Shown: positions 51,263 through 53,158 of the stretch, one piece after another
Numbering within the stretch: position 1 is the first letter of the stretch
How the letters are laid out: every line of letters starts with the position of its first letter
Origin: Amycolatopsis balhimycina FH 1894
GTDB lineage: Bacteria; Actinomycetota; Actinomycetes; Mycobacteriales; Pseudonocardiaceae
Reading direction: 5' to 3'
NCBI RefSeq assembly: GCF_000384295.1
Contig: NZ_KB913037.1
Span: forward strand, 6,258,822-6,322,821
DNA length: 64,000 bases
Notes under the pieces: generated by a model
Seen by the model: only the letters and a program-made list of their open reading frames with translations
What the model was told of the DNA's origin: nothing
Databases searched by the model: none
Program-made: the position numbers and the translations under genes

Positions 51263-52345
51263 CTAGAGCCAGCCGTTCTTCCGGAATATTCGGTACAGCA
51301 ACAGGCAGATCGCCAGGATCACGGTGATCACCAGCGGATACCCGAACTTCCAGTGCAGCTCGGGCAGATAGTCGAAGTTCATTCCGTAAATGCCGGCGAT
51401 CATCGTCGGCACGGTGATGATCGCCGCCCACGACGTGATTTTGCGCATGTCGGTGTTCTGCTGCAGGGAGATCTTCGCGACGGTCGCGTCGACCAGTGTG
51501 GACAGCAGTTCGTCGAACGCCGCCACCCGCTCCGACACGGTCGTGAGGTGGTCGGCGACGTCGCGGAAGTAGGAGCGGACCTCGTCCGGCACCAGCCGCG
51601 TGTAGCCCTCGGCCAGGCGCTGGATCGGCGTCGCCAGGGGCACCACCGCCCGGCGCAGCTCGAGGACCTCCCGCTTCATCAGGTAGATCTGCTCGGCACT
51701 GACCTGCGAGCGGGGCGCGAAGACCTGCGCCTCCATCTCGTCGATGTCGTTCTCGATCCGGCCGGTGACGTCGAGGTAGTGGTCGACGACGTGGTCGGTG
51801 ATCGCGTGCACCACCGCGGACGGGCCCAGCTGCAGCCGCTCCGGGTCCTCGTCCAGCTCGCGGCGCAGCCGCGCCAGCCCCGAGTGGTTCCCGTGCCGCA
51901 CGGTGATGACGAAGTCACGGCCGAGGAACACCATCAGCTCGCCGGTCTCGACGATCTCGTTCGCCGTCGTCGGCGACTCGTGCTCGACGTACCGGACGGT
52001 CTTGACCACCAGGAACAGCGTGTCGTCGTAGCGCTCCAGCTTGGGTCGCTGGTGCGCTTCGAGCGCGTCCTCGACCGCCAGTTCGTGCAGCCCGAACGTG
52101 TCCGCCACACCCTGGATCTGCTGGGCGTCCGGCTCGTGCAGCCCGATCCAGACGAACCCCTCGTGCCGCTTCCGGACCTCTTTGATCGCCTCGGAGTGGG
52201 CCCAGCGGCCGGGCAGGCGCTCACCGGCGACGTACACCGCGCAGTCGACGACGTACGCGGACAGCGGCACCGGAATCGGGCGGACCGGGACAGCACCCTT
52301 GTTGCCGCGGCCGCGAAGGCCGCCGAGCGAGGGAATGGCAGGCAT
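51263..52345 (-). CDS. corA: CorA-type magnesium/cobalt transporter
   Basis: A 360-aa channel subunit. A large cytosolic funnel (about residues 1-295) is followed by the pore helix ending in the signature GMN (IAGIYGMNFDYLPEL) and a second helix (YPLVITVILAICLLLYRIF), with basic C-terminus RKNGWL. AGGAGA lies 4 nt before the ATG. The position after lpqY-sugABC matches Rv1239c as I recall, though here about 12 kb of other genes separates them. A 5' leader region contains a proline-rich small ORF and alternative stems. Confidence 0.92.
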   Translation of the reverse strand: MPAIPSLGGLRGRGNKGAVPVRPIPVPLSAYVVDCAVYVAGERLPGRWAHSEAIKEVRKRHEGFVWIGLHEPDAQQIQGVADTFGLHELAVEDALEAHQRPKLERYDDTLFLVVKTVRYVEHESPTTANEIVETGELMVFLGRDFVITVRHGNHSGLARLRRELDEDPERLQLGPSAVVHAITDHVVDHYLDVTGRIENDIDEMEAQVFAPRSQVSAEQIYLMKREVLELRRAVVPLATPIQRLAEGYTRLVPDEVRSYFRDVADHLTTVSERVAAFDELLSTLVDATVAKISLQQNTDMRKITSWAAIITVPTMIAGIYGMNFDYLPELHWKFGYPLVITVILAICLLLYRIFRKNGWL

Positions 52346-52390
52346 GGGATCTCCTGGTGTCGTGCGTGGTCGTGCGAGACGACTGACCAG

Positions 52391-52410
52391 GGGCGGAAAT
52401 GCGTCCGCCC
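52391..52410 (-). promoter_or_regulatory. Hairpin in the corA 5' leader
   Basis: GGGCGGA and TCCGCCC pair as a perfect 7-bp stem with a 6-nt loop. It lies about 45 bp upstream of the corA ATG, downstream of the leader ORF. Possible attenuator or occluding hairpin. Confidence 0.5.
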
Positions 52411-52419
52411 GGCGACACA

Positions 52420-52478
52420 CCAGCGTTCCCGGGGAGAGAAGGCCTACCTGGAGACGACCCTTGAGGTGGGAACGCTGG
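52420..52478 (-). promoter_or_regulatory. 11-bp stem overlapping the corA leader ORF
   Basis: CCAGCGTTCCC (52420-52430) is the perfect complement of GGGAACGCTGG (52468-52478). On the corA transcript the second block lies inside the leader ORF across its third and fourth proline codons, and the first block lies 14-24 nt after its stop. A ribosome stalled on those prolines would prevent the stem. Confidence 0.55.
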
Positions 52479-52512
52479 GACTACTAGGGAGCGGACTATC
52501 GCCACTACTCAT
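52444..52512 (-). CDS. 22-codon proline-containing leader ORF upstream of corA
   Basis: ATG at 52512 preceded by GGAGGTGAGG, a strong ribosome site, and stop TAG at 52444. The 22-residue peptide begins MSSGDSPLPSS and has prolines at positions 7, 9, 12 and 15. It ends 98 nt before corA. The reading frame is open further upstream, but this ATG is the only start with a good site. By analogy with the mgtL and corL leaders of enteric Mg2+ transporters it may couple translation speed at prolines (Mg2+-sensitive) to corA expression. The rest of the gap 52346-52654 holds only the divergent promoters. Confidence 0.55.
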   Translation of the reverse strand: MSSGDSPLPSSPSVPTSRVVSR

Positions 52513-52654
52513 CGAGTTCCTCACCTCCTTCGGGCCGGGTGCAACAGTGGCGGGGCTCGCGTTGACGCGCGAACACCGATGGTTGAGGGTACTCCTCACC
52601 ACGGATGCGTGTCGTACCAGCCTCACACGGCGTTACGCGAACAGGGAGAGACGA

Positions 52655-53158
52655 GTGCAGTTCGGTCGGTACTACGAGGAGTTCGAGGTCGGTGCGGTCT
52701 ACAAGCACTGGCCGGGCAAAACGGTCACCGAATACGACGACCACCTCTTCTGCCTGATCACGATGAACCACCACCCGCTGCACCTCGACGCGCACTACGC
52801 GGAGCAGTCGACGGACTTCGGCAAGAACGTCGTCGTCGGCAACTACGTCTATTCGCTGCTGCTCGGGATGTCCGTGCCCGACGTCTCCGGCAAGGCGATC
52901 GCGAACCTCGAGGTCGAGTCGCTCAAGCACGTGAAGCCGACCTTCCACGGCGACACGATCTACGGCGAGACCGAGGTGCTGGACAAGACGCCGTCGAAGT
53001 CCAAGGACGACCGGGGCGTCGTGTACGTCGAGACCCGCGGTTACAAGCAGGACGGCACGATCGTGTGCATCTTCCGGCGGAAGGTGATGGTGCCGAAGCG
53101 CTCCTACGGGGAGACTCGCGGCGGGGAGCAGCCGGGCCGGCCGGTGCCGCACGAATGA
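52655..53158 (+). CDS. MaoC-family dehydratase
   Basis: A 167-aa hot-dog-fold enoyl-CoA hydratase-like enzyme. It starts QFGRYYEEFEVGAVYKHWPGKTVTEYDDHLFCLITMNHHPLHLDAHYAEQ; N-P-L-H-L-D-A-Y is the MaoC-type hydratase active site with Asp and His. GDTIYGETEVLDK follows, as in mesaconyl-CoA hydratase relatives. GTG start behind GGGAGAG. Substrate (short-chain or methyl-branched enoyl-CoA) not determined. Divergent from the corA leader. Confidence 0.82.
   Translation: MQFGRYYEEFEVGAVYKHWPGKTVTEYDDHLFCLITMNHHPLHLDAHYAEQSTDFGKNVVVGNYVYSLLLGMSVPDVSGKAIANLEVESLKHVKPTFHGDTIYGETEVLDKTPSKSKDDRGVVYVETRGYKQDGTIVCIFRRKVMVPKRSYGETRGGEQPGRPVPHE

Follow-up and report, generated by a model that had tools for sequence, protein, structure and literature searches.

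A conserved upstream open reading frame and predicted competing RNA helices in the corA leader of Amycolatopsis balhimycina and its relatives

Introduction

Leader peptides connected with Mg2+ uptake have been described in enteric bacteria and in mycobacteria. In E. coli the short upstream open reading frame (uORF) corL lies before corA, and translation of corL is inversely related to corA (PMC11552253). MgtL acts by ribosome drop-off at an EPDP motif under low Mg2+ (PMC11282234), while in Salmonella mgtQ the acidic codons matter and not the Pro codon (PMC8092293). In mycobacteria, uORF2, the Rv1805A peptide, was described in 2026 with a conserved proline 7, a masked Shine-Dalgarno (SD) sequence and Rho-dependent termination, its role being left open; the peptide has been called specific for mycobacteria (PMC12810186). 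Here, we analyze the leader of a corA gene of Amycolatopsis balhimycina FH 1894 (Pseudonocardiaceae), located in a stretch of 64,000 nucleotides (the window; contig NZ_KB913037.1 of assembly GCF_000384295.1, positions 6,258,822 to 6,322,821 of the forward strand). The leader carries a conserved uORF and two alternative RNA helices, and we propose that it probably works as a cis-acting leader-peptide switch in the style of enteric corL and mgtL.

The locus shares several traits with the described systems. Rv1805A, Rv1535A and Rv0115A are likewise short uORFs with a strong SD and an N-terminal M-S-x-x-D-S-P, connected with Mg2+ genes, and their SD can be masked by a complementary segment (PMC12810186). 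In contrast to the Rv1805A family, the uORF described here stands directly before corA, lacks an M-box and occurs in Pseudonocardiaceae, although the published Rv0115A also has no M-box (PMC12810186). With corL it shares the place before corA and a stem that sequesters the SD of the uORF and competes with other stems (PMC11552253), but the host here is actinobacterial. Acidic and Pro codons early in the leader ORF, together with the link to Mg2+ uptake, recall mgtL and mgtQ; drop-off at low Mg2+ was demonstrated there, whereas it is deduced here (PMC11282234, PMC8092293). Furthermore, mgtQ chooses among 1:2, 2:3 and 3:4 stems (PMC8092293), whereas no conserved 3:4 helix involving the corA SD was established for the leaders studied here. 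Among open-licence papers we found nothing relevant on an actinobacterial corA leader peptide, and no mention of Rv1805A beyond PMC12810186. An initial annotation of the window had suggested that a peptide-based Mg2+ attenuator of an actinobacterial corA would be new; the peptide family itself is not wholly so, having been described in mycobacteria (PMC12810186).

Results

The corA gene (360 aa; PF01544, 212.8 bits) lies on the minus strand at 52345..51263, with its ATG at 52345, and all leader features given below are on the same strand. The uORF of 22 codons (MSSGDSPLPSSPSVPTSRVVSR*, 52512..52444) has prolines at positions 7, 9, 12 and 15, is preceded by the strong SD AAGGAGGTG (52530-52522) and ends 98 nt before the corA ATG. 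The initial annotation had pointed out these elements, and all of them are present. Also borne out are a perfect 11-bp stem between CCAGCGTTCCC (52478-52468) and GGGAACGCTGG (52430-52420), the 5' arm of which is overlapped by the Pro12 and Pro15 codons, and a second hairpin of 7 bp before corA (GGGCGGA/TCCGCCC, 52410-52391), similar to GC-rich hairpins seen by eye in relatives. Missed was that the uORF SD is complementary to the region of the 5' arm, which gives a competing helix, in the window between GAGGTG-A-GGAAC (52526-52516) and GTTCCCACCTC (52473-52463). Three segments can be distinguished: segment 1 comprises the uORF SD and its flank (GGAGGTGAGGAAC, 52516..52528), segment 2 lies in the middle of the uORF (CCAGCGTTCCCACCTC, 52463..52478) and segment 3 is the post-stop arm of the stem (52420..52430), 14 nt 3' of the uORF stop in the window and at a median of 16 nt across leaders. 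Segment 2 can pair either with the uORF SD (helix 1:2) or with segment 3 (helix 2:3).

The corA leader with its uORF is real and conserved. Of the 80 named CorA loci retrieved as related, almost all of them from Pseudonocardiaceae, 74 carry a short GGAGGT-led ORF ahead of corA. The ORF is missing from L053, L061, L064, L066 and L073 (locus labels are ours), and L078 is masked by a run of N. Its product varies in length between 18 and 27 aa, with 43 aa in one case (L012), and shows no conservation in its C-terminal part. The set of 74 leaders used below consists of the window and 73 loci, after removal of the six loci just named and of L012. An order-wide survey covered 150 genomes, with 70 upstream regions of CorA genes inspected. 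All 19 loci of the own family, one being the window, carry the uORF; among 51 loci of other families a similar peptide was found in three (L120, L126, L129), while five of the remaining 48 have an SD-led short ORF without the motif and the rest have none. The two CorA paralogues encoded in the same genome have no uORF upstream. R1, a covariance model trained on corA leaders only, has matches in 157 of the 200 genomes searched in the family and in 41 of 46 genera, with one match per genome among the matches listed.

Judging from the substitution pattern, the N-terminus of the uORF is selected as a peptide and its middle part is not. This follows from a low in-frame ratio of nonsynonymous to synonymous changes (pN/pS) at codons 2-9, 0.26 compared to 3.26 and 1.33 in the shifted frames, and from the varied codons of Ser2 (AGT 24, AGC 11, TCC 6, TCG 1, and Asn once). 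The values refer to 43 leaders, that is all of Amycolatopsis, Prauserella and Qaidamihabitans and one metagenome-assembled genome in the set; codons 10-15 have a pN/pS of 0.98. Proline at codon 7 is present in 43/43 of these leaders, the window reading M1-S-S-G-D5-S-P7, and in other genera D and P are retained at shifted places. An acidic residue near a proline occurs within residues 1-12 in 70 of the 74 leaders and in 15 of 17 genera, compared to a mean of 48.2 and at most 58 leaders in 300 residue shuffles, and to 1 and 17 in the other frames. The conserved part of the peptide is the N-terminal D-S-P. The prolines in the stem, which the initial annotation had placed at the center of its attenuator, are less strictly kept: the residue after the core V/I/L is P in 52 leaders, S in eight, L in eight, F, G and N in one each, with no match in three. 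Stalling at proline codons inside the stem was therefore rejected as the conserved sensor.

Selection on the peptide does not account for all of the conservation, since the nucleotides of codons 5-7 are nearly invariant as well (GAT in 41, AGT in 42 and CCG in 42 of the 43 leaders). Among 430 Ser codons of the uORFs, 232 are AGT (54%), versus 9 of 970 (0.9%) in the coding regions of the corA genes at these loci. Such an excess of a rare Ser codon would fit a leader that senses another kind of slow translation, caused for example by rare AGT codons or by ribosome-targeting drugs, with corA as a stress target. AGT is kept at codons 3, 6 and 10 only, though, with codon 2 free among Ser codons, and the occurrence of the uORF family behind M-boxes and before divalent-metal transporters, described below, points to Mg2+. 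We consider this explanation very improbable.

Helix 2:3 is well supported by comparative pairing. In 73 leaders (L079 has no anchor and was left out) an 8-nt core forms 8/8 standard pairs in 32 cases versus 2.0 expected from shuffles; at least seven pairs form in 65 versus 25.4, and at least six in 72 versus 67.6. Segments 2 and 3 of the same leader pair better than segments combined across genera in 13 of 17 genera (74 leaders, p 0.0056), while the control pairings 1:3 and 2:coding gave p 0.89 and 0.40. As the initial annotation had proposed, the 5' regions of relatives were aligned for covariation. In alignment A1, 7 of 11 pairs are changed on both sides, pairing holds in 81.1% of cells and the covariation score is reached by 0 of 500 shuffles; A1 comprises 47 of the 74 rows, and the 27 others were left out by choice, including leaders with a segment 3 that is hard to place, which favours pairing. 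No such choice of rows enters the core-pairing and genus-comparison tests. Versions of the helix slid along the alignment pair in 37-46% of cells, and a slide of +3 gives 26 doubly changed cells versus 38 for the helix itself. RNAalifold recovers the same six-pair core. Two earlier attempts were set aside: a loose helix search in broad windows, in which 2:3 lay above shuffles in 53 and 1:2 in 64 of 74 leaders, placed several helices off-site and was replaced by the anchored tests, and a first alignment of whole leaders was too gappy past segment 3.

Helix 1:2 is supported more weakly than 2:3, as discussed below. Both helices use segment 2, and the leader is predicted to adopt mutually exclusive RNA structures, one of which would mask the uORF SD. 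In predicted folding of the free RNA the two are near balance (mean P(1:2) 0.46, P(2:3) 0.41), and blocking the start region raises the mean of 2:3 to 0.78.

A connection to Mg2+ comes from genomes outside the family. R1 also gives 15 matches in a second family of the order (f8), whose genomes appear to be of mycobacterial type from their gene content (PE/PPE genes, ileS). Fourteen of the 15 were examined, and 13 lie directly behind an M-box riboswitch (RF00380). In 10 of 11 fetched f8 loci the M-box is just upstream with 140-155 bits, three more were assigned by coordinates, and no M-box stands beside the match in L195. The reverse search agrees: among the 150 genomes of the order sample, 11 contain M-boxes, 24 in total, and a GGAGGT-led short ORF follows in 22 of the 24. 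Most of these uORFs read MS..DSP, and that of L204 (MSSGDSPSRYLTSVPSP) and that of the window (MSSGDSPLPSSPSVPTS) share the register MSSGDSPxxxxxSVP. Class-wide, 46 M-boxes were found in 25 of 394 genomes, and 14 of 21 further loci have a uORF of this kind (four by eye). One genus of another order (f32; L239, L274-L277) combines M-box, uORF and corA in all four of its genomes with an M-box; its CorA is 39-43% identical (tblastn), and that of L239 scores 222.2 bits for PF01544. The corA uORF thus evidently belongs to the Rv1805A/uORF2 family, an identity that rests on context and proline 7. The recurrence of this family after M-boxes and ahead of divalent-metal transporters points to Mg2+ as the signal, and the leader is very likely a part of Mg2+ control.

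The training set of a second model, R2, consisted in part of M-box uORFs, and matches of R2 behind M-boxes are consequently not independent evidence. R2 and alignment A2 omit some of the M-box uORFs (L208, L209, L210, L215, L222, L224). A few class-wide R2 matches at E 0.01-0.05 are probably noise, and one at E 6e-5 (L238, group f31) has neither a short uORF nor an M-box. The helices are partly found again behind M-boxes. Leaders of the rv1535 type (L186, L201, L203, L205) form a helix of 13-14 bp between codons 13-17 and post-stop RNA (shuffle p at most 0.01), with only 9 bp in L202 (p 0.14); in most other M-box uORFs 2:3 does not exceed shuffles, and 1:2 has 6 bp in the same place and is not significant locus by locus.

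Could Mg2+, or some other ligand, be sensed by the RNA itself, with uORF translation only reporting whether the SD is free, as in a translational M-box platform? The segment in the middle of the ORF can mask the uORF SD, the letters of codons 5-7 are conserved beyond the needs of the peptide, and the M-box of Mycobacterium tuberculosis masks the SD of the same uORF (PMC12810186). However, the window leader has no match to the M-box or any other Rfam family, even at E up to 1, and no M-box was found in 20 loci of relatives (Rfam scan) or in 19 Pseudonocardiaceae genomes searched with filters that lose weak matches. M-boxes are followed by the same uORF family and share the Mg2+ setting, but the aptamer was found neither in the window nor in the Pseudonocardiaceae genomes searched. 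In addition, selection at codons 2-9 on the protein level needs a role of the peptide. We regard an RNA sensor of this kind as unlikely.

The gene that follows the uORF differs: it may be corA, a PE/PPE gene, an NRAMP-like gene or a 60-aa gene. This bears on the view that the uORF product is a small protein which acts in trans on a transporter, the helices merely limiting its synthesis, a role that was proposed for Rv1805A with PE20/PPE31 (PMC12810186). It would explain the selection on the N-terminus and the copies outside the context of M-box and corA (L195, L255, L260, L263). Yet the neighbors are different, the product varies in length and in its C-terminal part, and codons 10-15 evolve without constraint on the peptide. 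The place before the main gene and the pairing with post-stop RNA fit a role in cis instead. A small protein acting in trans is in our opinion quite unlikely, if somewhat less so than a sensor of other slow translation.

Several loci of the uORF family deserve mention on their own. The copies without M-box in L195, L255, L260 and L263 precede genes of 58-59 aa, with a TrkA-like gene in L263 (names by eye). In L257, L258 and L259, from mycobacterial-type genomes, a diverged uORF (MCPGDC...) without adjoining M-box match stands before PE-like genes. Three f31 loci (L242, L264, L267) have an M-box and a uORF before a membrane-like protein of 59-60 aa.

The initial annotation had named two objections to a leader peptide, a transcription start inside or downstream of 52444 and a lack of conservation of ORF and stem in relatives. 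Neither applies as far as the sequence tells: ORF and stem recur in relatives as described above, and transcription probably starts 5' of the uORF, because a promoter-like site is found further upstream. It consists of a -10-like TACCCT (52586..52591, in GGAGTACCCT; alignment by eye) and, 18 nt 5' of it, a -35-like ACGACA (52610..52615), similar to ACGACA/GACGAC blocks seen by eye in many leaders of relatives. A loose GTANNCT-type -10 match is present in 72/74 leaders, a count without measured chance level. Between promoter and uORF lies the candidate hairpin P0 (TCGCG-CGTCAA-CGCGA, 52557..52572, by eye). Another hairpin, GTCGT/ACGAC (52369..52383, by eye), is located 5' of the corA SD (AGGAG, 52351..52355). 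The corA leader has its intergenic region in common with a divergent MaoC-like gene (name by eye; 52655-53158, plus strand).

Discussion

Taken as a cis-acting switch, the leader would work as follows. Transcription would start upstream of the uORF, the uORF would be translated, and the position of the ribosome during the first codons would decide between 1:2 and 2:3. A ribosome on the first nine codons would sit in the loop of 1:2 and leave 2:3 free to form, while a ribosome at the stop codon would leave segment 2 to segment 1 and crowd segment 3. At low Mg2+ the ribosome may slow down or drop off at the conserved Asp-Ser-Pro, so that 1:2 is not formed, 2:3 forms and corA is on. With unhindered translation 1:2 would reform and corA would go down, perhaps by Rho. 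The sequence comparison bears out the conservation of the uORF, the selection at codons 2-9, helix 2:3, its competition with 1:2 in predicted folding and the kinship with the uORF behind M-boxes. The direction of the switch is suggested by the ribosome geometry together with the enteric precedents; signal, site of slow-down, polarity and the Rho-dependent output are all deduced. The enteric likeness that the initial annotation had drawn holds for the conserved leader ORF, the selection on the protein level, the mutually exclusive helices and the independent tie to Mg2+ through M-box neighbors; it does not extend to the prolines in the stem, which are not strictly conserved.

Several observations weigh against the cis-acting switch. 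The acidic-Pro motif is absent from four uORFs (L035, L038, L043, L077), the later prolines vary among leaders, and in three of the four f32 uORFs D5 is replaced by H and P7 by R (by eye). R1 has no match in 43 of 200 family genomes, and seven of the 21 further M-box loci lack a clear uORF (L279, L281-L285, L287). Helix 2:3 outperforms pairs from other genera in only 41 of 74 single loci, and support for 1:2 is modest, with own segments better in 11 of 17 genera (p 0.035) and in 60 of 74 loci. Taken in full, the leader of the window shows no unusual stability (z -1.23). Moreover, the uORF of M. tuberculosis is reported to be most expressed with the M-box operon on, opposite to the enteric polarity (PMC12810186). 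This expression would fit 2:3 as the on state and 1:2 as the off state, but not full translation as the off state.

The switch is supported by the predicted folds, but its output step is not, because the accessibility of the corA SD does not differ clearly between them. With 1:2 or 2:3 forced, the corA SD is open to nearly the same degree (0.33 versus 0.37 across 66 leaders, rising in 36 and falling in 23; p=0.09), the window itself giving 0.43 versus 0.45, and blocking the start region changes the value from 0.33 to 0.32. These results, too, count against the proposed switch, and direct masking of the corA SD was rejected as its conserved output. Compared to shuffles, the corA SD is slightly more complementary to segment 3 with its 3' flank (mean z 0.40, p 0.014) and also more complementary to the end of the uORF (mean z 0.57, p 0.00037), the strongest cases of the latter being found mainly in a few Amycolatopsis leaders; we take both complementarities as a lead only.

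On a wider scale, we put forward, tentatively and with a little less than even confidence, that MSxGDSP uORFs are a peptide-coded Mg2+ sensor of actinomycetes which acts in cis, jointly with the M-box in mycobacteria and in other orders but by itself on the corA of Pseudonocardiaceae, and which is convergent with MgtL and CorL. This proposal joins the enteric Mg2+ leader peptides and the conserved uORF behind mycobacterial M-boxes, which were not joined in the literature searched. If it is true, the role of the uORF becomes testable in a harmless soil bacterium in which it precedes corA on its own, the unexplained Rv1805A would gain a function, and the view of the peptide as specific for mycobacteria would have to be revised.
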